Source: Nocardioides aurantiacus (GTDB taxonomy: Bacteria > Actinomycetota > Actinomycetes > Propionibacteriales > Nocardioidaceae). From it: a stretch of DNA of 64,000 nucleotides. Positions 3,576 through 49,897 of this stretch are shown here, piece after piece. The notes under the pieces were generated by a model. That model was not told where the DNA came from, did no database searches, and saw nothing but the letters and a program-made list of their open reading frames with translations. The stretch covers positions 2,666,001-2,730,000 of the forward strand of contig NZ_RKHO01000001.1 in the NCBI RefSeq assembly GCF_003752505.1. The letters run 5' to 3'. The stretch's first letter is position 1. Each line of letters begins with the position of its first letter. Both the position numbers and the translations under genes were made by a program.

Positions 3576-3746
3576 TGCAGAGCCAGCCGAACAGCGAAGA
3601 CCGGGCTGCCATGCAGCGCCTCAATGACTACCTGAACCAGAACCCGACGCTCACTTGGCGACGGCTACGGGCTAGACAGAGCCGTCCGCTACCTGGCCAC
3701 CGTCTGCGCCGGCCACCCCGACTATGAGGTTGACTGGAGCCCATGA
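3575..3746 (+). pseudogene. Chimeric junction: gene E N-terminus fused out of frame to a DUF6221-like C-terminus
   Basis: The first 28 codons (MQSQPNSEDRAAMQRL...) are homologous to the intact gene at 50477-50779 (73 of 84 bases identical, changes mostly silent). After CACTTGG (3658) homology ends. From there another frame encodes a tail ending RYLATVCAGHPDYEVDWSP whose stop overlaps the integrase ATG; this resembles the C-terminal motif of DUF6221-family actinobacterial proteins (HPDY..W.P). So a DUF6221-like gene upstream of int was apparently truncated when the inverted cassette arrived. The in-frame product would be 50 aa and is probably not functional. Confidence 0.65.
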
Positions 3747-4900
3747 GGCAGGTTCGCGAGTACGTCGCCAAGGACGGCACCAAGACCCACCGTGTCCGCT
3801 ACCGCCTCGACGGCACCGAACACAGCCAGACCTTCCGCAGCAAGAAGGACGCCGATACGTTCGCCAAGATGGTCGACGTCGGAGTCATCGACGCGCTCAG
3901 GTGGCTAGCCGACCGAGGAGCAGGCACACCCGACGGACCCACCTTCGCCCAGTTCTTCGAGACCTACGTCGACCAACTCACCGGCGTCACCATCCGCACC
4001 CGCGACGACTACCGCGCCCAGAAACGCCGCTACCTCACCGAGCTCGACCCACTCCCCCTGCCGCTCATCACCCGCGGGCGTGTGACCAGCATCGTCAACC
4101 GGCTCGAGCGTGAAGGCCGCTCACCGAAGACGATCCGCAACGTCGTGCACATGCTGTCCTCCTGCATGGGTCTCGCGCTCTACGACGGCCACATCGCACG
4201 CAACCCCTGCCACCGGATGCAGCTGCCCAAGGAAGGCGTCAACCGCGACCGGGCACGCTTCCTCACCCACGACGAGTTCGGCGCCCTCTACGACGCCATG
4301 CCCGATCACTACCAGCCACTCGCCGCGTTCATGGTCGGCACCGGACTCCGCTGGTCCGAAGCCACCGCGCTCTACTCCCGCCACGTCGACCTCAAGGCCG
4401 GAACCGTGCGCGTCGAACAGGCATGGAAGAAGGTGCCCGGCGGCTGGGAGATCGGACCACCCAAGTCGGCAAAGTCCTGGCGCACCGTCAACGCCGCCAC
4501 CGGAGCACTCGCCGCAGCACAGCCGCTCCTGCGTCGGCCGCGCGACCACGTATTCACCACGCCCAACGGTCTCGTCGTGCGTCACGCCAACTTCTACAAC
4601 CGCGTCTGGCAGACAGCCTGCGTCGACGCTGGCCTAGGCGACTGGGTAGACGGACCAAACAAGCGCCAGTGGGAAGGCCCGAGCCCCCACGACCTGCGCC
4701 ACACGCACGCGTCGTGGCTCATCAGCGACGGACAATCGCTGGAGTCCGTCCAGGACCAGCTGGGCCACGAATCGATCCTCACGACCCGCAAGGTCTACGG
4801 CCACCTCCTGCCAGCGATCGGCGTGGAGGTGGGCCGTAGTGCCTCGGCGGGGCTTGAGCGCGCCCTAGCGAACCGGGTGCAGCCCCTCGCTCTCGGCTGA
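3743..4900 (+). CDS. int: Prophage tyrosine integrase
   Basis: Catalyses site-specific recombination between attP and the tRNA-His attB. 385 residues: N-terminal arm-binding domain (1-60), core-binding SAM-like domain (~65-165) and catalytic domain (~170-370). Catalytic residues seen: R203 (GTGLRWSEA), K241 or K244, H316-x-x-R319 (HDLRHTHAS), H342 (LGHESILTT) and nucleophile Y352 (KVYGHL). Next to attL as expected. Its start overlaps the stop of an upstream truncated gene (ATGA), suggesting it was once co-translated with it. Confidence 0.96.
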   Translation: MRQVREYVAKDGTKTHRVRYRLDGTEHSQTFRSKKDADTFAKMVDVGVIDALRWLADRGAGTPDGPTFAQFFETYVDQLTGVTIRTRDDYRAQKRRYLTELDPLPLPLITRGRVTSIVNRLEREGRSPKTIRNVVHMLSSCMGLALYDGHIARNPCHRMQLPKEGVNRDRARFLTHDEFGALYDAMPDHYQPLAAFMVGTGLRWSEATALYSRHVDLKAGTVRVEQAWKKVPGGWEIGPPKSAKSWRTVNAATGALAAAQPLLRRPRDHVFTTPNGLVVRHANFYNRVWQTACVDAGLGDWVDGPNKRQWEGPSPHDLRHTHASWLISDGQSLESVQDQLGHESILTTRKVYGHLLPAIGVEVGRSASAGLERALANRVQPLALG

Positions 4901-24018: not shown

Positions 24019-24474
24019 ATGGGAGCACAACAGCCGGCCGCCTTGCAGCTCCTCAAGGGCCGCGGCAATGGCACAGACTCTGGTGGCCGCAAGGTCAAGG
24101 AGCCCCCGAACTTCAAGCGCGTCCCGCCGACCGCACCTGACTGGCTGAGCGCCGAGGCCGCCGCCGAGTGGGCCCGGGTGGTACCCGGCTTACAGCGGCT
24201 CGACCTCCTCAAGGAGGAGGACCGTGCCGTCCTGGCGGCCTACTGCGAGACGTGGTCGACCTACGTCGTCGCTGTCCGCCTGGTCGCAACCGAGGGCCTG
24301 ACGATCGAGGCCAAGCAGGGGATGCTCCCGCATCCGGCGGTGGGCATCGCTCGCAGCGCGGGTCGCGAGCTCCGAGCCTTCGCCGGTCAGTTTGGCCTCT
24401 CCCCCGTGGCCGAGATGGCTCTAGGACAGGTGGGCGACGATGGCGCGGAGGACAGCAACCCCTTCTCCGGCTGA
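24019..24474 (+). CDS. terS: Terminase small subunit (P27 family)
   Basis: 151 residues. LQLLKGRGNGTDSGGRKVKEPPNFKRVPPTAPDWLSAEAAAEWARVVPGLQ and the following helices match P27-type small terminases, which recognise packaging sites. Overlaps the large subunit by 35 nt. Confidence 0.9.
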   Translation: MGAQQPAALQLLKGRGNGTDSGGRKVKEPPNFKRVPPTAPDWLSAEAAAEWARVVPGLQRLDLLKEEDRAVLAAYCETWSTYVVAVRLVATEGLTIEAKQGMLPHPAVGIARSAGRELRAFAGQFGLSPVAEMALGQVGDDGAEDSNPFSG

Positions 24475-26167
24475 CGTCGAACTGCCTGACGCCGACACTT
24501 TGGCGCGGCTGAAGCTCAGCCCCGAGGTCGCCTGGTACTTGGTCTCGCGCGGCATCGCGCTCCCCGACTGTCCGCCGCTCATCAAGACCCCTGAGCCTGG
24601 CGAGACGTGCCCTGGCGCCCAGTTCGACCCTGAGCGGGTTGACAAGGTGCTCGTGTCGTTTGGGTTGCTACGCCACACGAAGGGCAAGTGGGCGGGCACC
24701 CCGCTCAAGCCTGACCCGTGGCAGGTCGCCTACGTCCTGGCGCCCGTCTTCGGGTGGGTGCGCTTCGACGAGGACGCCGACCGATGGGTTCGCGTTGTCC
24801 GCGAGCTCTACGTGGACATCCCTCGCAAGAACGGCAAGAGCACGACGCTCGGCGGCATCGCGATCTATATGACCGCAGCCGACGGCGAGTCGGGCGCGGA
24901 GGTCATCGCCGCTGCGACTACGACGGCCCAGGCGGGCTTCGTGTTCGCGCCGATCAAGGCGATGTGCGACAAGGCTCCGGCGCTCAAGGGTCACCTGAAG
25001 GCGTACACGGGTCGCATCGTCCACCCGGCTTCGGCGTCGTACTTTCAGGCGATCTCGTCGGTGGCCGATGCCCAGCACGGCGCGAACATCCACTGTGCTG
25101 TGATCGACGAGCTGCACGTCCACAAGTCGGCCGAGATGGTCGAGACGCTAGAGACTGGCACCGGCTCGCGCGACCAGCCGCTGGTTGCGACGATCACGAC
25201 CGCCGACGATGGTCGACCGGGCACGATCTACGCGCGGAAGCGCAACCGGATCGAGCAGTTGGCCCAGCGCGTGCTGCACGACTCGACCACGTACGGCGTC
25301 ATTTGGGCGGTAGAGGAGACCGACGACCCGTTCGCCGAGGCGACATGGCGCAAGGCCAACCCTGGCTTCGGGATCTCGCCGACGCGCTCGTACCTGGCGA
25401 AGGAAGCCGCGCGGGCGAAGGACTCCCCCGCCGACCTGGCAAAGTTCCTGCGCCTACACCTTGGACGCCGGACCAAGCAGGACACCAAGTACCTCGAGTT
25501 GCCCTCGTGGGATGCATCCGCCGGCCTGGTGGTGCCCGAAACGCTCAAGGGCCGCACCTGCCACGGTGGGCTCGACCTCGCAAGTGTCAACGACCTCACG
25601 GCGCTGTGCTGGGACTTCCCTGACGGCGACAAGCACGAGCTGCTGTGGCGGTTCTGGCTGCCCGAGGATCGCCTCAAGGATCTGGACCGCCGCACGGCCG
25701 GCGAAGCCACAGTGTGGGTCCGCGAGGGTCGCCTGACGACCACGCCCGGCAACGTGATCGACAACGACTTCATCGTGACCCAGATCCTCAAGGACGCAGA
25801 GACGTTCGACGTCAAGACGCTCGGATTCGACCGCTGGGGCGCCAATGACGTCGTGAGGCGACTGGGTGACGAAGGCATTACCTGCGTCCCTGTCGGCCAG
25901 GGCTTCGCCACGATGTCGGCGCCGCTCAAGGAAGTCCTGCGGCTTGTCCTGTCCAAGCGCTATATCCACGGCGGCGATCCCGTCATGCGATGGATGGTCG
26001 ACAACCTGGCCGTAGCGATGGACCCCTCCGGGAACGTCAAGCCCGACAAGGCCAGAGCCGCCGAGAAGATCGACGGCGTTTCCGCCGCCGTCACTGCCAT
26101 GCGCGAGGCGATGGACGCCACCGCCGCCGATGAGTCCGATACGACCGTGCTCGTCTTCCGCCGCTAG
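24440..26167 (+). CDS. terL: Terminase large subunit
   Basis: 575 residues. ATPase domain with a Walker-A-like DIPRKNGKST and Walker B IHCAVIDELH; nuclease domain with GGLDLAS (D), TLGFDRWGAND and ADESDTT (C-terminal acidic). Terminase_1/HK97 type. It cuts and pumps phage DNA into the prohead with TerS. Confidence 0.95.
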   Translation: MARRTATPSPADVELPDADTLARLKLSPEVAWYLVSRGIALPDCPPLIKTPEPGETCPGAQFDPERVDKVLVSFGLLRHTKGKWAGTPLKPDPWQVAYVLAPVFGWVRFDEDADRWVRVVRELYVDIPRKNGKSTTLGGIAIYMTAADGESGAEVIAAATTTAQAGFVFAPIKAMCDKAPALKGHLKAYTGRIVHPASASYFQAISSVADAQHGANIHCAVIDELHVHKSAEMVETLETGTGSRDQPLVATITTADDGRPGTIYARKRNRIEQLAQRVLHDSTTYGVIWAVEETDDPFAEATWRKANPGFGISPTRSYLAKEAARAKDSPADLAKFLRLHLGRRTKQDTKYLELPSWDASAGLVVPETLKGRTCHGGLDLASVNDLTALCWDFPDGDKHELLWRFWLPEDRLKDLDRRTAGEATVWVREGRLTTTPGNVIDNDFIVTQILKDAETFDVKTLGFDRWGANDVVRRLGDEGITCVPVGQGFATMSAPLKEVLRLVLSKRYIHGGDPVMRWMVDNLAVAMDPSGNVKPDKARAAEKIDGVSAAVTAMREAMDATAADESDTTVLVFRR

Positions 26168-26175
26168 AGAGGTTG

Positions 26176-27585
26176 GTGACCGCTGTGCCGCTGACCAAGG
26201 ATGAGACGGACACACTCCTTCGCCTCAAGTCGCGTCTCGACCGTGACGCCCGCGACCACTGGGTCAACAACCAGCGGGTGCCGGGGTTTAAGTCGCTACG
26301 GCACTACTACGACGGCCTCCAGCGCCTCGAGCAGCTGGGTCTGGCGGTGCCGGAGGATCTGCGGAAGTTCACGACGATCGTGGCGTGGCCGCGGACCTAC
26401 GTGGATGCCGTGGTCTCTCGTCTTCGCCCGCAGGGGTTCCTGCTCGACGGTGAGGCGGACGCCGAGATGTGGCGCCGCTGGCAGGCCAACAACCTCGACG
26501 GCGAGTTCCGCATGGCGCTGGTCGACATGCTGGTCTGTGGTCGCGGGTACCTCTGTGTCGGCACCAACGAGGACGACGCCGGCACGCCGCTCATCACGGT
26601 CGAGTCGCCGCTGGAGATGATCCACGAGTGGTCGAACCGCTACCGCAAGGTGACGGTCGCTGCCCGCTTCTACTCCGAGGACGTCGCTGGCCGCAAGGTC
26701 CCGAAGGCTGTCCTGTACTACCCCGACGCCACCATCTGGATCACGATGGAAGCCGGCCAGTGGGAGCAGGAGGGCGAGCGCGACGAGCACAACCTCGGCC
26801 GCGTCCCCGTGCACCCGCTGGTCAACCGCGGCACCTCCGACGACCGCTATGGCACGTCGGAGATCATCCCCATCATCGGCCTCACTGACGCCGCCGCTCG
26901 CGCGCTGACCAACGCCCAGGTCGCGACCGAGGTCATGGCACTTCCCCAGCGGTACGCGGCCGGCATGACGGCTGCGGACTTCAAGGACCCGGACACGGGT
27001 GAGGCGCTGAGCGCCTGGGAGTCCTACTTCGGTGCGGTGTGGGCCACGTCGAGCAAGGACGCCAAGTTCGGGCAGTTCTCTGCTGCGGACCTGAGCAACT
27101 TCAAGACGATCGTCGAGATGTACGCCGGTCTCGTTGCGAACGTGACCCGTCTCCCGATGCGCTACTTCGTTCTTCGCGGCGGTAGTGGTGACGCCCCCTC
27201 TGAGGGCAGCATCCGCGCAGAGGAGGAGGGCCTGATCGGGATCTGCGAGGAGAAGCAGGAGTTTGCCTCGGATGGCCTCGAGGACACTCAGCGGACCGCC
27301 GACCGTCTCGTCACTGGCGAGATCGACCTGCTGTTGGTCGAGATGGTCACTGATTGGCGCAGCCCGGCCACCCCGACGCTGGCCCAGGCTGCCGACGGTG
27401 CCGTGAAGCTCCATGCACAGGGCTTGTTCTCTCGGCGTGAGGCGCTGCGCACGATGGGCAAGTCTCCCAAGCAGATCCAGGTCATCGAGACCGAGCTGCG
27501 CGAGGAAGCCTTCGACCCCATCACGGCTGCACTCGCGGCCCAGGTGACTGGCAATGGCAGCACAGCCCCCGCCGTCAGCCAGTAG
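26176..27585 (+). CDS. Portal protein (SPP1 gp6-like)
   Basis: 469 residues from GTG 26176, with AGAGG just upstream (TTG 26173 is an alternative). Long alpha-beta protein with VPVHPLVNRGTSDDRYGTSEI and NVTRLPMRYFV, typical of actinophage portals of the SPP1-gp6 family. Twelve copies form the DNA entry ring of the head. Overlaps the MuF gene by 32 nt. Confidence 0.9.
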   Translation: MTAVPLTKDETDTLLRLKSRLDRDARDHWVNNQRVPGFKSLRHYYDGLQRLEQLGLAVPEDLRKFTTIVAWPRTYVDAVVSRLRPQGFLLDGEADAEMWRRWQANNLDGEFRMALVDMLVCGRGYLCVGTNEDDAGTPLITVESPLEMIHEWSNRYRKVTVAARFYSEDVAGRKVPKAVLYYPDATIWITMEAGQWEQEGERDEHNLGRVPVHPLVNRGTSDDRYGTSEIIPIIGLTDAAARALTNAQVATEVMALPQRYAAGMTAADFKDPDTGEALSAWESYFGAVWATSSKDAKFGQFSAADLSNFKTIVEMYAGLVANVTRLPMRYFVLRGGSGDAPSEGSIRAEEEGLIGICEEKQEFASDGLEDTQRTADRLVTGEIDLLLVEMVTDWRSPATPTLAQAADGAVKLHAQGLFSRREALRTMGKSPKQIQVIETELREEAFDPITAALAAQVTGNGSTAPAVSQ

Positions 27586-29505: not shown

Positions 29506-30537
29506 ATGGCTATCGTCTTCGACGGTCCGGTCACCCCGGACGCTCTCACCACGTTCGTCCGCGAGGTCCCCTCGCCGGCCGACCAGGTGCTCAACACCAT
29601 CCTCCCCGACCGCGTGCTCAACCGGAACACGGTCGACCTCTCGGAGTTGACCCGCACCAACCGGACCGCGCGGTTCCGGGCGTTCGACGCTCGCCTGCAC
29701 GTCTCCGAGCGGGACACTGTGGCGACGAAGCAGGTCAAGCTGCCGCCGCTGTCGTCCTCGGTGAGTGTCGGTGAATTCGAGCGTCTCCAGCTGGAGTTCG
29801 CCCGGCTCGGCGGCACCAACCAGGCCGCGATCGTGGACGCCATCTACGACGACGCGACCAACCTGACCCGCGAGGTTCGCGCCCGCATGGAGCAGGCTCG
29901 AGGTGACGTCCTCACCGACGGCAAGTTCACGCTTGCTGGCGAGGGCAACCTGACGATGGAGGCCGACTTCGGCGTCCCCGCCAACCACATCGTGGCCCCG
30001 GCCACCCTGTGGTCGAACGTGGCGTCGGCGACCATCATCGCCAACCTCACGGACTGGGTGAACGTCTACGTCGCCACCAACGGCTCGCGTCCGACCGGCA
30101 TGATCGTCTCCACCCGGGCGATGAACTACATGCTCCAGAACGCCGAGATCCGCAGCCTGGCCGCCAGCCTGGCCGGCGCTCCCGGCCTGGTGACCCGTCC
30201 GGCTCTGGACGCGGCTCTGGCTGCGTTCGGCCTGCCGCCCGTGTCGCTGGTCTACGACTCCAACGTGGACGTGGACGGGGTCTCCACCAAGGTCATCCCC
30301 GACGACCGGGTGATCCTGTTCGGCGAGAACGTCGGCTACACCGCCTGGGGCATCACCGCCACGGCGCTGGAGCTCGTCGGCGCGGCCGAGACGGACCTGT
30401 CGTTCGCGGACGCGCCCGGCATCGTCGGTGTCGTCATCAAGGAGGGCCCGCCCTTCCGTCAGTTCTCCTACGTGGACGCGGTCGGTATGCCGGTCCTGGA
30501 GAACCCGCGTCGCCTGCTGATCGCTGACGTCGCCTGA
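29506..30537 (+). CDS. Major capsid protein (E family)
   Basis: 343 residues. Contains VLNTILPDRVLNRNTVDL, a spine-helix segment (NLTREVRARMEQARGDVLTDGKF) and the GYTAWGITATALEL region, as in the phage major capsid protein E family with HK97 fold. Strong GGAAGGA ribosome-binding site, consistent with high expression. Confidence 0.92.
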   Translation: MAIVFDGPVTPDALTTFVREVPSPADQVLNTILPDRVLNRNTVDLSELTRTNRTARFRAFDARLHVSERDTVATKQVKLPPLSSSVSVGEFERLQLEFARLGGTNQAAIVDAIYDDATNLTREVRARMEQARGDVLTDGKFTLAGEGNLTMEADFGVPANHIVAPATLWSNVASATIIANLTDWVNVYVATNGSRPTGMIVSTRAMNYMLQNAEIRSLAASLAGAPGLVTRPALDAALAAFGLPPVSLVYDSNVDVDGVSTKVIPDDRVILFGENVGYTAWGITATALELVGAAETDLSFADAPGIVGVVIKEGPPFRQFSYVDAVGMPVLENPRRLLIADVA

Positions 30538-42046: not shown

Positions 42047-42463
42047 ATGCCTATCCAGCGAACCTCAGCCAAGGTGGCGTTCCGTCGCCCCTGGCCGGGG
42101 ACACGTCGCGGCCTGAAGCTCTGGCTGCTGTCCATCGTCATCGGGCTACTCGGGTTCAACTACATCGTCTCCCCCGTGCCGACCTCGACCGAGCAGGCAC
42201 TCACACTCCCCGGCGAGGTGATGCCGCTGGAGTGGTGGGGCATCGGCATCGTGGGGCTCTGCGTCGTGGCTGGTTTCTGCTCCTACTGCCACATGGGCCG
42301 CGACCGCTACGGCTACTACATGCTGAGCGTGTTCGCCGTCGCGTGGGGCACCGCGTACCTAGTCAGCCCGTTCCTGTTTGACGCATCGACACGCGCCTTC
42401 TCGGGTGCGCTCTCCTGGTACGTCATCTTCGGGTTCCTGGTGCTTTCGGCTGGTGACGAGTGA
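42047..42463 (+). CDS. Three-to-four-helix membrane protein
   Basis: 138 residues with hydrophobic segments at ~24-44, ~66-83, ~90-107 and ~115-133. GAGAGGGG upstream. Position just before a coiled-coil membrane protein and lysin suggests a lysis role (holin or antiholin), not proven. Confidence 0.65.
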   Translation: MPIQRTSAKVAFRRPWPGTRRGLKLWLLSIVIGLLGFNYIVSPVPTSTEQALTLPGEVMPLEWWGIGIVGLCVVAGFCSYCHMGRDRYGYYMLSVFAVAWGTAYLVSPFLFDASTRAFSGALSWYVIFGFLVLSAGDE

Positions 42464-42882
42464 CTGCGGCGCAGGCGACCGTGATCGGTGCGCTGCTGGT
42501 GTTCTCGGCGTCCATCATCGGCGCCCTGCTGGTCCGCAACAGCACGAAGAAGGCTCAGGCTCTCGACGCCCGGAAGGTCGACCTCGACGAGTTCCGTGAG
42601 GTGCAGGCCCGTAACGAGGCTGCGCTAGATCGTGCGGACAAGCGGATCGCCGACCTGGAGGCCCGTCTGGTGACTGAGCACGAGGCCCGGCAGCGGTCCG
42701 ACGAGCGCGCGGACGAGGCCGAGAAGGCAGCCCAGCGCGCCGAGCGACGTACGGCCGAGGTCGAGGAGCAGGGCAAGCGCCTGGCCCGTCGACTGTCGCG
42801 TTCTGAGCGGCGCGTGAAGCAGCTCGAGAAGGCGATGGCCGACGCGGGCGTGCCCGTGCCCGACCCACTCCCCGACGACTGA
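42460..42882 (+). CDS. Membrane-anchored coiled-coil protein
   Basis: 140 residues from GTG 42460. One N-terminal helix (ATVIGALLVFSASIIGALLV) and then ~95 residues of continuous charged coiled coil (ARNEAALDRADKRIADLEARL...). Architecture recalls actinophage proteins encoded upstream of lysins, some of them spanin-like; function not established. Confidence 0.65.
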   Translation: MTAAQATVIGALLVFSASIIGALLVRNSTKKAQALDARKVDLDEFREVQARNEAALDRADKRIADLEARLVTEHEARQRSDERADEAEKAAQRAERRTAEVEEQGKRLARRLSRSERRVKQLEKAMADAGVPVPDPLPDD

Positions 42883-42926: not shown

Positions 42927-44426
42927 ATGCCCACCAACATCTCTGTCACCCACGCCTCGATGCGTTGGGATCGCATCCGCAGCAAGACCATCGCGGCCGA
43001 CCTCGCGCACCTCCAGGAGTCGTGCCTGGTCGTGACGCTCACCGAGATCGGCGGGCTGACGGACCTCGAACTGCGGAAGCTCGCGAACGGGTGGCCCTTC
43101 TTCCGTGGCGCGAACGTCCCCGGGGTCGACGAATGCGCGATCCTCTGGCACCCCAGCCTCACCGCCGCCGCGCCCGGCTACGTGCAGAAGATCTCCGACC
43201 TGCAATACCAGCAGGCCGACGCCGACTGGGTGCCCAAGGTTCACGCCGCCGTCCAGCCGCTCCGGTTCCCCGACGGCCAGGTCGTCACCTTCATCACCCT
43301 GCACGCCGCGCTTCGCAACACCCCCCGCCGCGTCAAGGTCTCCGACGACGGGCTCCGGTTTCTAGGTGCGTGGCTGCCGACGATCGCCGGCCCGAAGGTC
43401 GTCATGGCCGACTGGAACCTCGGCTACCGCGTCGCTGCCCACCGCGCCGCCCTTGAGCGCCTATCCAATGCCACCGGCATGACGTGGGCGTGGCAGGACA
43501 ACGTCGAGGGCTTCGACACCAAGAAGTCGCTGATCGACGGAGTGCTGACCGACCTCCCCGTCCGCGAGTCGACTCTGCTGCCTGCCATCGCGTCGTCCGA
43601 CCACTGGCCCGTGCGCGTCGACCTGACGCTGCCCGACTCCGCTCCCCTGCCCACACCGCCCCAGGAGGCACCCGTGGCACGACTTCCGATCGACCTCCCC
43701 ACGACTCTGCGCAAGGCGGGTCTCAAGGTCCAGGTCCACGGCAACGACTGGCAGGCGCGTGGGCGCCCGGGTTCCTTCAACCCGGTCGGTGTGCTGTGCC
43801 ACCACACGGCCACCTCGAAGCGCACTTCGGACGGGGCGACCATCCAGTTGCTGATCGACGGTCGCCCGGACCTGCCGGGGCCGCTCTGCCAACTGGGTCT
43901 CTCGCGAGATGGAACTGTCCACGTGATCGCGGGCGGTCGCACCAACCACGGCGGCAAAGCGAAGTCGTCGGGCACGGTTTCGGCGGGTGACGCCAACAGC
44001 CTCTACATCGGCATCGAGGCGTTCAACGACGGCGTGGGCGAGCCCTGGCCCAAGGAGCAGGTCGACGCCTACGTACTGCTCGCCGCGACGCTCTGCAAGA
44101 AGGTCACGGGCAACTCCGCCGAGACGGTCCGCGGCCACAAGGAGACCAGCGTCACCGGGAAGATCGACCCGACCTTCTCGATGCCGGACTTCCGCAAGCG
44201 CGTCGCCGCGGCAATCAGCAGCGGCCCCACCAAGCCCTTCAGTCCCAGCAAGGAGGCCCCCGTGGTCAAGCTGAACGGCGTCCAGATCTTCCAGCGCGAG
44301 GCTCTTGCCCTGGTCGACAAGCACGCCCCCGCGATCATCGCCGCCCGCAGCAAGCAGGCAGGCAAGGGCGTCGGGGCCAGGGCGTACTTCGCTCTGCTGC
44401 GAACCACGATCAAGGGGTTCAAGTGA
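42927..44426 (+). CDS. Lysin with fused EEP nuclease-like domain and amidase
   Basis: 499 residues in three parts. Residues 1-235 are an endonuclease/exonuclease/phosphatase fold with its catalytic set: E40 (LTEIGG), H126 (TLHAAL), D162/N164 (MADWN), D204 (LIDGVL), D225-H226 (SSDHWPV). A Pro-rich linker (237-250) leads to an amidase_2 domain (250-435) with zinc ligands H292 (CHHTATS), H404 (RGHKETS) and D414, and K412. The last ~54 residues (446-499) are a small helical, basic domain, perhaps wall-binding. Both linkers read EAPV and each encodes AGGAGG-N5-GTG, so amidase-C-term and C-term-only products may also be made. Amidase should cut the MurNAc-L-Ala bond; the EEP substrate is unknown. 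Confidence 0.85.
   Translation: MPTNISVTHASMRWDRIRSKTIAADLAHLQESCLVVTLTEIGGLTDLELRKLANGWPFFRGANVPGVDECAILWHPSLTAAAPGYVQKISDLQYQQADADWVPKVHAAVQPLRFPDGQVVTFITLHAALRNTPRRVKVSDDGLRFLGAWLPTIAGPKVVMADWNLGYRVAAHRAALERLSNATGMTWAWQDNVEGFDTKKSLIDGVLTDLPVRESTLLPAIASSDHWPVRVDLTLPDSAPLPTPPQEAPVARLPIDLPTTLRKAGLKVQVHGNDWQARGRPGSFNPVGVLCHHTATSKRTSDGATIQLLIDGRPDLPGPLCQLGLSRDGTVHVIAGGRTNHGGKAKSSGTVSAGDANSLYIGIEAFNDGVGEPWPKEQVDAYVLLAATLCKKVTGNSAETVRGHKETSVTGKIDPTFSMPDFRKRVAAAISSGPTKPFSPSKEAPVVKLNGVQIFQREALALVDKHAPAIIAARSKQAGKGVGARAYFALLRTTIKGFK
43663..43676 (+). promoter_or_regulatory. Internal ribosome-binding site and GTG, lysin codon 250
   Basis: AGGAGGCACCCGTGG: SD AGGAGG (43663-43668), 5-nt spacer, in-frame GTG at 43674. 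Starts exactly at the amidase domain. Almost identical to the site at 44251. Confidence 0.65.
44251..44264 (+). promoter_or_regulatory. Internal ribosome-binding site and GTG, lysin codon 446
   Basis: AGGAGGCCCCCGTGG: SD AGGAGG (44251-44256), 5-nt spacer, in-frame GTG at 44262. Would give a 54-residue C-terminal product, as known for some phage endolysins that make separate wall-binding subunits. Confidence 0.6.
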
Positions 44427-44650
44427 CCGCGATCAACGTCCCGGCGCGGGTTCGGTTCTGGCTCTACATCGTTGGCGCCGTGGCTGCGCCGCTGGTCACC
44501 TACCTGTTTGCCGAGGGCATCTTCAACGCCGCAGCGGTGGCTCTGGCGACGGCCTACATCTCACTGCTCAACGCGCTCGCTGCCGCCAAGACGGACCTGA
44601 GCGAGCCGAACACCCGGCCCGTCCACCCGGTCGAGCCCGACGGTCACTGA
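44423..44650 (+). CDS. Holin-like protein
   Basis: 75 residues from GTG 44423, GTGA overlap with the lysin stop. Two membrane helices (FWLYIVGAVAAPLVTYLFA; FNAAAVALATAYISLLNALAA) and a charged tail, as in small actinophage holins. Confidence 0.78.
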   Translation: MTAINVPARVRFWLYIVGAVAAPLVTYLFAEGIFNAAAVALATAYISLLNALAAAKTDLSEPNTRPVHPVEPDGH

Positions 44651-44793: not shown

Positions 44794-46410
44794 GTGCCGA
44801 TCCCCGCCGCCGACCCGTTGACCGACGGCGTCACCGCAACCATCAGCGGACCCGTCAAGCTCCCCGGCGGTCTCGCCCCACTCGAGGGCACCTGGTACGC
44901 ACGCATCCGCACCCTCAACGGTGCCACCATCGACTCCGACGGCACGATCCGTGGCGGCATCCAGGGTGTCTACGACGACGGAGACGGCGCCGTGATGGTG
45001 CTGCCGCTGGGGTCGTATGAGTTCCGGTTCGAGTCCTCCAACATCAACCCCCACACCGGACAGCGCGACCAGTACGGCTGGTACCCCTTCGACCTCGTCG
45101 AGGACACCCTGTGGGGCGTCATCATGGAGACCCCCGTCGAGGTGCCCGTCACCCCGTCGGACGTCACCCGCGCTGAGGCTGCACGCGACACAGCCGAGCA
45201 GTTCGCGGCCGACGCCCAGGTCGCCGCAGAATCGGTCTACCAGATCGGCACCGACAACGACACCGCGGTCGCTGGCGCAGTCAACACCACCGGCACGGCG
45301 CGAGAAGCCGTCAAGAACGCCGCCACCACCGTCGCCGTCACCATCAAGGAAGCGCCCCTCTCCCCCTTCCGCTACGGCCTGACCGTGGCGATGGAGGGCG
45401 ACCCTAGTGCCGTCGCCGCCGTCACCGCCGCATTCCAGGCCACCATCAACGCACTCCCTGCCTCGCAGGGCGCCATGCTCATCCCCCGCGGCAGCTGGTT
45501 CTGCTCCGGCCTTAAGAGCCAGGGCCGACAGTTCGACATCCACGGCCTCGGTCGCCAGGTCAGCGCACTGCGACTCGTGCACCACGCGGGCACTGCGACG
45601 CCCATGATCCACATCCTCGCCGACACCGCACCCAACTATGGTGCGGGCGTCATCCGCGACTTCACCATCGGCCTCGCCTCCGGTGTCGAGGCCGCGACCC
45701 CCGGTGCGTGCATCAAGGTCGAGGGCGCCTACGCAGCCGATATCGGCGTCGAGGACATGTGGCTCGGTGGCGGCTCGGTCGGGGTCTGGTGGGCCGGCGC
45801 CACCAACGGCCACGTCTCCCGGACCACCATCGAAGGCTGCCAGGGGTCCGGCATCTACGCCGAGAACTCCAAGCTCCTCAGCTTCGACACGATCCAGACG
45901 TTCCAGAACAACGCCAACGGCATCGAGCTCCAGAACTGCCAGAGCATCGAAATCCTAGGCGGGAAGCACATCGAGAACTACGGCAACGGGCTGCTCGCAA
46001 ACTCCGGTGGCGCCATCAAGGTCGTCGGCGGGCTCTGGGACAACAACTCCAAGCAGTTCGCCTACAACCCCGCCGCGCCGGGCTTCTCGACCTACGACAA
46101 CATCCGCTACATGGGGGTCAACAAGGGTGAGGTCACCGCGACAGCGCACGTCTCTTCCCTCGGTCAGCCGTGGGCAAAGCGCGCCGTCTACATCGACCCC
46201 ACGTCGTACCACGTCAGCATCCTCGGCGGCGAGGTCGACGCCGACGCGGTGACCACCGACTCGTTCGTCAATCTCTCCGAAAACGGCCAGGTCATCACCC
46301 GTGACCGGGTGCAGTTGCGGTCCCCCATCAAGATTGGCGGGATGTTCCTCCGTGACGGTGGTGGTCTGCTCCAGCAGTCCGCCAACGGTTCGACGTGGAC
46401 GAACCTCTAG
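44794..46410 (+). CDS. Tail spike/fibre with beta-helix
   Basis: 538 residues from GTG 44794. N-terminal ~110 residues attach to the particle (beta domain); a short coiled-coil region (~130-180) follows; residues ~200-470 are a right-handed parallel beta-helix (repeats such as SGIYAENSKLL...NNANGIELQNCQSIEILGG), as in polysaccharide-binding or -cleaving tail spikes. Its last 4 nt overlap the opposite-strand methyltransferase. Confidence 0.82.
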   Translation: MPIPAADPLTDGVTATISGPVKLPGGLAPLEGTWYARIRTLNGATIDSDGTIRGGIQGVYDDGDGAVMVLPLGSYEFRFESSNINPHTGQRDQYGWYPFDLVEDTLWGVIMETPVEVPVTPSDVTRAEAARDTAEQFAADAQVAAESVYQIGTDNDTAVAGAVNTTGTAREAVKNAATTVAVTIKEAPLSPFRYGLTVAMEGDPSAVAAVTAAFQATINALPASQGAMLIPRGSWFCSGLKSQGRQFDIHGLGRQVSALRLVHHAGTATPMIHILADTAPNYGAGVIRDFTIGLASGVEAATPGACIKVEGAYAADIGVEDMWLGGGSVGVWWAGATNGHVSRTTIEGCQGSGIYAENSKLLSFDTIQTFQNNANGIELQNCQSIEILGGKHIENYGNGLLANSGGAIKVVGGLWDNNSKQFAYNPAAPGFSTYDNIRYMGVNKGEVTATAHVSSLGQPWAKRAVYIDPTSYHVSILGGEVDADAVTTDSFVNLSENGQVITRDRVQLRSPIKIGGMFLRDGGGLLQQSANGSTWTNL

Positions 46411-47159
46411 CCGGTCGCCAGCATGAGGTAACGCTTGCGACCCGACTCGGAGTGCCGATTCAGGTCCGCCAGCGTCACTAGCTCAGGTGTCTCGGCCACG
46501 AAGGCGTCGACCGCCTCGGTGACACCGGGCCAGTCGGGGTGGTCGTAGTCATCAGCCACGATCACCCCACCCGGCAGCAGGTGGCGGCGAGCGAGCCGTA
46601 GGTCCGACAGGACGTCGTCGCGTTCGTGGCTGCCGTCGACGTGGACGAACCGGAACCGGGCGGCGTCGTCCAGGTGCAGGTCGGTCGAGTAGACCTCGTG
46701 GATCACCAGCCGCGCCTGGTCGAACCCGGGCACGCCGCGCGTGACGTTGCGGCGCAGACCTGTCGGCGTCGGCGGGTCGGCAACGTACACGTCGCCGCTC
46801 TGGAACGGGTCGCACACCACTAGGGTCTCGCCGTCGCGTACTTGCTCGGCGAGGACGATCGTCGACCGCCCGTGAAACGGGCCGATCTCAAGGATGTCGC
46901 CGTGGAGCCCTTGGGCTGACTGCATAGCGAGGACGAGCGTGAAGTGGGCAGCGTCGTCGTAGGTGAACCACCCCTGGATGCCCCGCATCGAAGCGAACGT
47001 GGTCGCGGTCGGGCCGGGCCGGGCGTCTTTCGCGAACGTTGTCGAGTCAGGGTTTGCGCGGCCCTTGACTACAAGGTTCTTCGCTCGGATCTGCGCCGCC
47101 CGGACGGCTCGCGTCGGGTCGTTCCGGATCACGTCGAGACGGCGCTTGTCCAACAGCAT
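46407..47159 (-). CDS. Class I SAM-dependent methyltransferase (moron)
   Basis: 250 residues. Motif I GDILEIGPFHGRSTI, acidic motif VVCDPF, and RFVHVDGSHERDDVLSDLRLARRHLLPGGVIVADDY match the Methyltransf_24/cephalosporin-hydroxylase-like group often found in glycan clusters. It lies leftward between the tail spike and the tail fibre, so is probably expressed by the lysogen and may modify a cell-surface sugar. A trace of a Rossmann-fold gene lies just upstream on the same strand (47200-47260). Confidence 0.85.
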   Translation of the reverse strand: MLLDKRRLDVIRNDPTRAVRAAQIRAKNLVVKGRANPDSTTFAKDARPGPTATTFASMRGIQGWFTYDDAAHFTLVLAMQSAQGLHGDILEIGPFHGRSTIVLAEQVRDGETLVVCDPFQSGDVYVADPPTPTGLRRNVTRGVPGFDQARLVIHEVYSTDLHLDDAARFRFVHVDGSHERDDVLSDLRLARRHLLPGGVIVADDYDHPDWPGVTEAVDAFVAETPELVTLADLNRHSESGRKRYLMLATG

Positions 47160-47303: not shown

Positions 47304-48545
47304 ATGGCCGGAATCACTGTCGGCGGCACCACAGACGACTGGATTCTCAACTCGTCGACCGGGCTGCCCCTGAAGCGCGCGTCCAAGCTTCGCCGGTACG
47401 CGACCCTCACGGGCGGGTCACCGCTGACTCTGACGCTGAATGGGCAGTCCGTCACCGAGATCCCCGTGCCGCCCGGTGGGTTCTACCCCGAGCACACCCT
47501 GCCCGAGGGTGTCTCCACCACGTACGTCGTCGCTCTCGAGACCGCCAACGCCACCGACGCGAACTTCGCAGCCGCGCCCCGCTATAAGGAAGTCCCGCCC
47601 GGAAGTGGTGGCGGTGGCGGGACCAGCGACTACAACGCGCTGCTCAACAAGCCGACCCTCTCGACCGTCGCAGGAACCGGCGCCTACGCGGACCTCACCG
47701 GCAAGCCCACCCTCGCCGCCGTCGCTGGCACCGGGTCGTACGGCGACCTGTCCGGGAAGCCGACGATCCCCACCACCCCCGGTGAGGTCGGTGCAGCGGC
47801 GGCCACCCACACGCACTCCGCGACCCAGATCAGCAATTCCACCACCACGGGCCGCAACGTCCTCACCGCCGCAGACAAGGCAGCCGCACGGGCCGCGATC
47901 GGGCTGGTCACCGGGAGCCCCGCCGCCGACGAATACCAGCTCCTCGACACCGCCAACGTCGGACTCGGGGCCGTCCAGCCGCCGCCCGCCAAGGGCCAGT
48001 TCGTAATGCCGTCCGTCACCCACGGCGCACAAACCCCCCGCGCCGGCACCCACTACGTGCCGCTGTACCTCACCCCCGGCACCTACGACGCACTCGGCTG
48101 CAACGTCAACGTCCAGCAGGTCGGCGGCTCCACCACCTTCAAGCTCGCACTGTTCAAGGCGCACCCGCTCGGCCTATGGGACGACTCCACCGGCCCGCTG
48201 CGTGAAGCGACCGTCGACCTCACCACAGGCGGGACCGGACAGCGCACCGTCACCGTCACCGACCTAGTCGTCACCGAACCCGGCTGGTACTACGTCGCCG
48301 CGCTGTACGCCGTCACCACCGCACCCACCACCTCCGCGACACTGCTGTGCTCACAGGGCACCACCGGCTACTCCCTGCCGTGGACCACCATTACCGGCAA
48401 CGTCCCCAAGACCGCCTACATCTACCTCAGCGTCACCGCTTGGCCCACCACCACCATCGCAGCCGACGGAACCGTCAACGCCTCGCTGACCGTCAACGGC
48501 AACCTCAACTCGCCCATCGTCGGCGTCCGTCGCAAGGCCGCCTGA
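47304..48545 (+). CDS. Tail fibre protein
   Basis: 413 residues from ATG 47304 with GAGGAG upstream (an upstream in-frame ATG at 47259 would add 15 residues). Contains short collagen-like/hinge repeats (LSTVAGTGAYADLTGKPT, LAAVAGTGSYGDLSGKPT), a GxxxATHTHSATQI motif typical of fibres, and a C-terminal beta domain. Overlaps the next gene by 1 nt. Confidence 0.82.
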   Translation: MAGITVGGTTDDWILNSSTGLPLKRASKLRRYATLTGGSPLTLTLNGQSVTEIPVPPGGFYPEHTLPEGVSTTYVVALETANATDANFAAAPRYKEVPPGSGGGGGTSDYNALLNKPTLSTVAGTGAYADLTGKPTLAAVAGTGSYGDLSGKPTIPTTPGEVGAAAATHTHSATQISNSTTTGRNVLTAADKAAARAAIGLVTGSPAADEYQLLDTANVGLGAVQPPPAKGQFVMPSVTHGAQTPRAGTHYVPLYLTPGTYDALGCNVNVQQVGGSTTFKLALFKAHPLGLWDDSTGPLREATVDLTTGGTGQRTVTVTDLVVTEPGWYYVAALYAVTTAPTTSATLLCSQGTTGYSLPWTTITGNVPKTAYIYLSVTAWPTTTIAADGTVNASLTVNGNLNSPIVGVRRKAA

Positions 48546-49897
48546 TGGCCGGGTTCCTGGCCGCACGCCCCCCCGCCGGGACGCCTCCACCGACCATCGA
48601 CACGACCCGGTTCGTCGACGCCCACGACATGACGTCCTCCGCGCTCGACATGAACCAATCCGGGACCTACTTCGCGAACAACTACATCAACCCCGCAGGC
48701 GAAGGTGGGGTCCATGCGGCCTACGGCGGCTTCACCCGCGACCAACAGATCGCCTACCCCGGCACCACCACCTCCGCGTGGCAGCTCGAGTACGCCCGCA
48801 CGGAGGTCGCCCGCGCAAAGGCCGCCGGGATCGACGGGTTCCTCGGCAACATGATGTCCGCCAGTGGCGACAATCAGACCCGTGCGCTCGCGATGGCTCA
48901 GGCGTGCGCCGAAGACGGCACCATGCGCTACACCCCGAACGTCGACACCAACGGCAGCATCGCGTCCTTGTCGGCAGCCGGGATCGCGGACGTCCTCGAG
49001 GCCGTCTACGAAACCGGGTCCGCACGGGTCGTCGGCGGGAAGTACCTGCTGTCGTCGTTCAAGGCCGAAGGGAAGACCGTCGCCTGGTGGACGGCACTCA
49101 AGACCGAGCTCGCCAACCGCGGCTACCCCGTCGAGTTCATCGCCGTGCTCCTCAACGCCTCCGACGCCAACATGGAAGCGTTCGCACCGATCTCGTGGGC
49201 GCTGTCGGTGTGGGGTCCCGCTCGACCGCAGAACGTCGTCAGCCTCGCCGGGCGCGCACAGAAGGCACACGCGCTGGGCCGCAAGTGGATGGGTCCGATC
49301 CGACCGCAGGACTTCCGCCCCCGTGACGGCGACGTGGCCGAGGCGCAGAACACCGACCTGTGGCGCGGAATGTGGGGCGCCGCGATGCAGGCCGGCACCT
49401 CGGGTGCCGACTGTGTGCAGCTTGTGACGTGGGATGACTACGCCGAACACACCCACATCTCGCCATCGGTGGGCGGCGGCTATGCGTGGGCGAAGCTGAC
49501 GAAGGTCTATGGGGCGGCGTTCAAGGCGCAGGCCTCGGTGGCGGTGACGAGCCCGCTGGTGGTGCTGACCCACCGCAAGCACCCCGCCGCGGCAACGCCG
49601 AGCAACCAGACCGAACTCGCGTCACCCACCCTCGACGGCACCTCCACGATGCGGAACACCACCGAGGCGCTATGCATCCTCCCCGCGGCCGGAACGGTGT
49701 CGGTCAACGGCGGCACCGCGACCGCCGTGCCTGCGAACACCCCGACCGCCGTCACCGCCCCCCTCGTCGTCGGGGGCGCGAACACTGCGGTCGTCACGGG
49801 GCAGTCGGGCGGCACGTTCACCGTTACCTCAGCCCACACCACGACCGCCACCCCGGCCGTGCAGGACCTGCACTACAAGGCCACCGTCTACGGCTGA
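48545..49897 (+). CDS. GH71-like alpha-1,3-glucanase, virion-associated
   Basis: 450 residues. VDAHDM near the start, ARAKAAGIDGFLGN, TPNVDTNGS, SWALSVWGP and VTWDDYAEHTHISPS follow the layout of glycoside hydrolase family 71 (alpha-1,3-glucan hydrolases with a TIM-barrel). The C-terminal ~130 residues are a beta domain. In a tail-fibre operon it is probably a depolymerase acting on a surface alpha-glucan. GH71 is mostly fungal, so this is a notable assignment and needs profile comparison. Confidence 0.7.
   Translation: MAGFLAARPPAGTPPPTIDTTRFVDAHDMTSSALDMNQSGTYFANNYINPAGEGGVHAAYGGFTRDQQIAYPGTTTSAWQLEYARTEVARAKAAGIDGFLGNMMSASGDNQTRALAMAQACAEDGTMRYTPNVDTNGSIASLSAAGIADVLEAVYETGSARVVGGKYLLSSFKAEGKTVAWWTALKTELANRGYPVEFIAVLLNASDANMEAFAPISWALSVWGPARPQNVVSLAGRAQKAHALGRKWMGPIRPQDFRPRDGDVAEAQNTDLWRGMWGAAMQAGTSGADCVQLVTWDDYAEHTHISPSVGGGYAWAKLTKVYGAAFKAQASVAVTSPLVVLTHRKHPAAATPSNQTELASPTLDGTSTMRNTTEALCILPAAGTVSVNGGTATAVPANTPTAVTAPLVVGGANTAVVTGQSGGTFTVTSAHTTTATPAVQDLHYKATVYG

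Follow-up and report, generated by a model that had tools for sequence, protein, structure and literature searches.

Endolysins are usually described as peptidoglycan hydrolases combined with binding domains. The Lysin A proteins of mycobacteriophages fall into 26 organizations, built from peptidase, amidase, muramidase and binding modules, and an EEP domain is reported in none of them (PMC3314691). Nor was a lysin with an EEP domain found in PMC full text (open-licence papers, searched by literal wording), in keeping with the original prediction for the locus studied here, whose author did not know of such a combination. Odd lysin fusions do exist, as demonstrated by a Microbacterium phage amidase joined to an adenosylhomocysteinase domain (PMC7302621). 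Phosphodiesterases of the GDPD type are present in the tails of Enterococcus phages, where they are thought to act on teichoic acids (PMC10194240). In phage Ms6, Lysin241 has been proven to arise from an element within the lysA gene (TGGAGGT-accgcc-GTG), and efficient lysis requires both lysin forms (PMC3111421).

Here we describe an endolysin gene in a 64,000-nucleotide stretch of the Nocardioides aurantiacus genome (hereafter the window). We conclude that its product, an EEP–amidase lysin, represents a genuine variant of modular endolysins that recurs and for which we found no earlier description.

A prophage lysin gene with an uninterrupted frame

The lysin gene (42927–44426, forward strand, as are all parts of the gene and the adjoining lysis ORFs given below) is a single uninterrupted ORF of 499 codons. 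Its open frame, an Amidase_2 match and an EEP profile delineate an EEP domain, a Pro linker, an Amidase_2 domain and a basic tail. The complete host genome (a single 4.06-Mb contig) has the same ORF, and a 48,954-base IMG/VR contig encodes the lysin at 100% identity. By its match coordinates, this viral contig should cover about positions 2590–51543 of the window and is probably the same prophage. A stop or frameshift between the domains, named in the original prediction as one observation that would speak against it, is absent from the window, the complete genome and the public viral contig; because the ORF is open in the latter two, an assembly error between the domains was also rejected.

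The gene sits in a prophage, marked by Pfam-confirmed genes for an integrase (3743–4900), a large terminase (24440–26167) and an SPP1-type portal (26173–27585). A capsid gene near 29506 has ~71% DNA identity to the capsid gene of Arthrobacter phages. The lysins of Faja and Seahorse, two Arthrobacter phages whose capsid gene is related, were set aside, as they look by eye like peptidase-type lysins rather than amidase fusions. Outside the prophage, a host gene shares 69% identity with a Pimelobacter simplex gene, which makes a Nocardioidaceae-like host likely.

Several neighbouring ORFs may take part in lysis. Two small ORFs with hydrophobic stretches lie 5′ of the lysin (42047–42463 and 42460–42882, together 42047–42882) and could encode lysis proteins. 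A small membrane-protein-like ORF (44423–44650), whose first codon shares bases with the stop codon of the lysin gene (GTGA), is a candidate holin and gave no match to holin profiles. Directly after these genes, positions 44794–46410 encode a right-handed beta-helix protein (PF13229, above cut-off) that is likely a tail spike or depolymerase. A large ORF further 3′ (48347–49897) resembles by eye a GH71-like glycoside hydrolase, and a reverse-strand ORF within the prophage (46407–47159) likewise resembles a class I methyltransferase.

The C-terminal half is a predicted zinc amidase

Residues 253–430 (43683–44216) form an Amidase_2 domain (Pfam PF01510, E 1e-13). The C-terminal half is closest to phage endolysins (PHROG phrog_880, E 5e-42) and has a solved amidase relative in the PDB (9hna, E 1.5e-13). 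The amidase relatives show little or no variation in the AmpD-type zinc-site motifs (H-H-T, E, G-H-x-E and K-x-D). Alignment and family knowledge assign H292, H404 and D414, together with E364 and K412, as the putative zinc site, and the conservation of the three ligands bears out the amidase that had been predicted behind a proline-rich linker (residues 236–252; 43632–43682). A basic tail follows (residues 431–499; 44217–44423), with a pI of 10.8 over residues 436–499. An apparent match of Streptomyces phage Eklok across two genes was rejected: it consists only of the amidase and a stretch ahead of it, and Eklok gp18 and gp19 show, by eye, no EEP motifs.

The N-terminal half has an EEP fold

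Residues 1–235 (42927–43631) gave no direct family match in Pfam (including PF03372), PHROGs or NCBIfam, and tblastn of this half against 50,697 phages found nothing, such that a profile route was needed to detect its identity. The half weakly matches, at 28% identity, a protein from a genome of the same family (L004) that itself passes Pfam Exo_endo_phos (PF03372). In this host protein (L004:736-2229, reverse strand), an apparently secreted EEP domain precedes a weak PLD-like match (PF13091, E 0.045). We gathered its relatives and built a profile from 16 of these host EEP proteins, leaving out the window protein; the N-terminal half scored 55.5 bits against it, with almost all of the domain aligned (profile positions 35–256); the maximum among 5000 shuffles was 8.6 bits. 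Residues E40, H126, D162, N164, D204, D225 and H226 align to the EEP motif columns, and Ser12 occupies the motif-I Asn column. The original prediction of all EEP catalytic positions therefore holds for the seven residues that it named, with ‘all’ slightly too strong in view of Ser12.

An AlphaFold2 model of the EEP domain, built from a 5-sequence alignment, reached a pLDDT of 76 and a pTM of 0.81; the single-sequence model of the full-length lysin had a pLDDT of 35. In VIA comparisons, the domain model matched the Bacteroides EEP 3mpr with a Z of 22.0 (rmsd 2.8 over 219 residues), followed by TDP2 (about 21), CNOT6L (20.3) and neutral sphingomyelinase (19.9). APE1/ExoIII scored 18.7–18.9, a small gap to the 20–22 of TDP2, CNOT6L and the Bacteroides EEPs. 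Enzymes of the AP endonuclease/ExoIII subfamily have Tyr at the position matching H126, where His is kept in all six EEPs from lysis loci described below. The profile score, shuffle control, AlphaFold2 model and structure matches make the EEP fold secure. The proposed structural check thus came out in favour of an EEP fold over an unrelated one. With this fold and a complete EEP active site, the domain would be a metal-dependent phosphodiesterase or phosphoesterase.

The EEP and amidase pair recurs in lysis loci

Amidase alignments served to scan contigs from IMG/VR and GTDB, which yielded ~200 loci after overlaps were taken into account, and we sought EEP domains in all frames. The pair was present in 6 of about 200 amidase loci, the window and five more. 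In two, the order is reversed, with the EEP domain fused behind the amidase: L065 encodes a 487-amino-acid protein of amidase, SH3-like stretch and EEP (Pfam EEP E 3e-9, passing the cut-off), and L190 a 456-amino-acid protein of amidase and EEP (host-EEP profile E 4e-26; Pfam 6.5e-5), directly followed on its 3′ side by an r1t-type holin gene (PF16945, E 3.7e-20). The other three have a separate EEP gene close to the lysin. In L143, a Nocardioides MAG, the EEP gene begins just past the amidase stop codon, and a holin-like ORF is joined by an ATGA overlap; L191 has amidase, holin-like and EEP genes in that order; and in L238, a 126-kb viral contig, an amidase–SH3 gene and an EEP gene overlap at GTGA. 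Across 15,594 translated frames from the amidase loci, the host-EEP profile matched EEP proteins only; the L191 protein needs an extended profile and is supported by this and its motifs only.

Each of the six lysis EEPs retains the seven catalytic positions. The motif-I Asn is present in L065, L190, L143 and L238, and absent in L191 as in the window. A search with the N-terminal domain through about 990 sampled related genomes found no second copy of the window’s own fusion. Weak N-domain matches in G479 and G498 (L007 and L008) look like chance. A scan of the viral contigs with host-type EEP proteins returned nothing, and single-protein scans returned the query alone.

These order swaps and gene splits indicate that the two partners stay associated even though the way in which they are joined is not conserved. 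Linkage that survives such rearrangement typically points to enzymes sharing one task. That EEP repeatedly accompanies the amidase, whether fused to either terminus or encoded nearby in the lysis cassette, points to a lysis-linked role.

Further extra domains were seen on related lysins. Those of L064 and L068 are homologous to each other (42% identity), but one precedes the amidase (L064:3323-3901, N-terminal) and the other follows it (L068:4610-5293, C-terminal), and L221 has a C-terminal extra domain on a closely related amidase lysin (L221:4604-5311). We considered whether a GDPD-type phosphodiesterase replaces EEP in these three and did not adopt this assignment, which rests on motif order with weak statistics: the L064/L068 domain reached a Pfam E of 0.057 for GDPD, failing the cut-off, ranked 3rd and 13th against 400 background ORFs in hhalign and had no PDB match. 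In another viral contig, a clear GDPD domain (E 7e-16, host GDPD profile) is encoded by a long ORF located upstream of the lysin gene (L288:1079-3898).

A putative internal start at the domain boundary

Within the linker, an AGGAGG (43663) is followed after 5 nucleotides by an in-frame GTG (43674), and the element (AGGAGG-CACCC-GTG; 43663–43676) would constitute an internal ribosome-binding site and a start at residue 250. A similar element, CGGAGG-TACCC-GTG, is found at the homologous place in L064, the nearest amidase relative, which has a different N-terminal domain, and the one-domain amidase of L218 has its native ATG start at the homologous place. The window element suggests that a second, amidase-only product of 250 amino acids (43674–44426) is made.

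A second AGGAGG-5nt-GTG occurs in frame at 44251–44264 (V446), just before the basic C-terminal tail. The linker peptide EAPV flanks the amidase on both sides, and such elements may be by-products of repeated EAPV linkers, which calls for caution in reading the internal start.

Proposed role in lysis and its alternatives

The explanation that we favour, plausible but held tentatively, combines these observations: the EEP domain would be an auxiliary metal-dependent phosphodiesterase that acts on the envelope after the holin has opened the way. The gene would encode the endolysin of a tailed actinobacterial prophage, whose host is probably of Nocardioidaceae type, and join two enzymes in one protein. 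Having no evident signal peptide, the lysin would gain access to the wall once the holin opens the membrane. There, the amidase, judged by its family, would cleave the MurNAc–L-Ala bond of peptidoglycan, and the EEP domain would most likely cut an envelope phosphodiester, in either a wall-linked teichoic-acid-type anionic polymer or a membrane-anchored lipid, helping the amidase to dismantle the wall. With the in-frame ribosome-binding site and GTG, EEP–amidase and free amidase would probably be made together. An envelope target is suggested because the EEP domain is linked to a wall amidase and because a cytoplasmic DNase would be hazardous before lysis. Against this explanation, the structural neighbours mix nucleases (TDP2 and CNOT6L), sphingomyelinase and sugar phosphatase, with Z values close together, and the closest annotated phage relative of the L143 EEP, Celiavirus gp4, lies outside a lysis cassette. 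Most lysins of this amidase group are without EEP, which makes the domain dispensable for lysis in general. The original prediction had proposed either degradation of released DNA or attack on an envelope phosphodiester, and the computed results fit both. Overall, some phages probably cleave an additional target that contains phosphate when they burst their hosts. A bolder proposal is more doubtful: that these loci represent an undescribed lysis strategy of actinobacterial phages, in which an EEP enzyme, either joined to the amidase or produced alongside it, cleaves a phosphodiester polymer linked to the wall at lysis and so is the first dedicated ‘teichoicase’ of a lysis cassette, with a fused form alongside an amidase-only product from the internal start.

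The evidence bears differently on other roles. Many EEP enzymes are nucleases, TDP2 and CNOT6L are among the best structural neighbours of the model, and the Celiavirus relative adjoins HNH and terminase genes, all of which would fit a nuclease that degrades the DNA or RNA of the host during cell opening, thereby lowering viscosity and freeing the phage, or that destroys nucleic acid late in infection. Charge cuts both ways: a strongly basic character (pI 10.0–11.4) in four of the six EEP domains favours a nuclease, but the domains of the window (6.4) and L065 (6.0) are slightly acidic. A cytoplasmic store of such an enzyme would also endanger unpackaged phage DNA, and being joined to a wall amidase would presumably be of no help to a DNase. 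We consider a nuclease possible but less likely than an envelope-directed enzyme. The chance is slimmer that the domain is a phospholipase C- or sphingomyelinase-type enzyme that harms the host membrane and so supplements the holin. The top Foldseek match of the model is human neutral sphingomyelinase (E 1.6e-11) and beta-hemolysin is among the profile matches, but the sphingomyelinase VIA Z of 19.9 falls below several EEP groups and no membrane-binding segment was identified in the EEP domain.

The remaining alternatives would deny the domain an enzymatic or lytic role altogether. Ser12 in place of the motif-I Asn and the strong divergence from Pfam EEP could reflect lost catalysis, leaving a binding or folding module; keeping E40, H126, D162, N164, D204, D225 and H226, the metal and catalytic positions, in six divergent copies is unexpected for a dead enzyme, and we regard this reading as improbable. 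That the fusion arose by chance in one prophage and is meaningless for lysis would agree with the lack of a second copy among the genomes sampled, but this view is already contradicted by the same pair in five further phages, fused or as nearby genes, and is very improbable indeed.

If the favoured role as an envelope-directed phosphodiesterase holds, or indeed if the partner handles nucleic acid, its recurrence would mean that some phages can exit their hosts only by clearing a further envelope polymer or by coping with nucleic acid that has been released. The domain would offer a defined enzyme with which to learn which phosphodiester of Nocardioides-type walls impedes lysis, and it extends the lysin tool-box by one enzyme module. 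The locus also illustrates that phage EEP domains can escape standard family searches.

Comparison with known systems

The window protein resembles mycobacteriophage Lysin A, likewise modular and from actinobacterial phages, in its central Amidase_2 domain, its extra N-terminal module and its putative binding region at the C-terminus; the N-terminal modules of Lysin A are predicted peptidases (M23, N1–N5), whereas that of the window is an EEP domain (PMC3314691). With Ms6 LysA/Lysin241 it shares an in-frame GTG and Shine–Dalgarno sequence within the lysin gene, upstream of the amidase. The two products are experimentally shown in Ms6, the window counterpart being known from its sequence element alone, and the N-terminal module of the window lysin is distinguished by its EEP fold.

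The GDPD domains of tail lysins, in Enterococcus phages (PMC10194240) and Lactobacillus phage Ld17, are phage-borne phosphodiesterases with a presumed action on teichoic acids during wall attack, but they have another fold and act from the virion tail for entry, whereas the window EEP belongs to a lysis gene. Celiavirus gp4, from Streptomyces phages Itza, Urza, VieEnRose and Celia, is a stand-alone phage EEP with 32% identity to the L143 EEP; these proteins (Itza gp4 is L321:1408-2112) are annotated as ‘phosphoesterase’ or ‘hydrolase’, and the gene, unlike the lysis EEPs, does not lie next to a lysin gene and adjoins tRNA-Trp, HNH and small terminase genes. Finally, the window domain has the fold and catalytic residue set of the EEP superfamily (PF03372), which includes DNase I, TDP2, CNOT6L, neutral sphingomyelinase and the Bacteroides EEP phosphatases. 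It differs in its motif-I Ser for Asn and in falling below Pfam detection, and the lysis EEPs as a group stand apart from the superfamily in their partner, a peptidoglycan amidase to which they are fused or close to which they are encoded in the lysis cassettes of phages.
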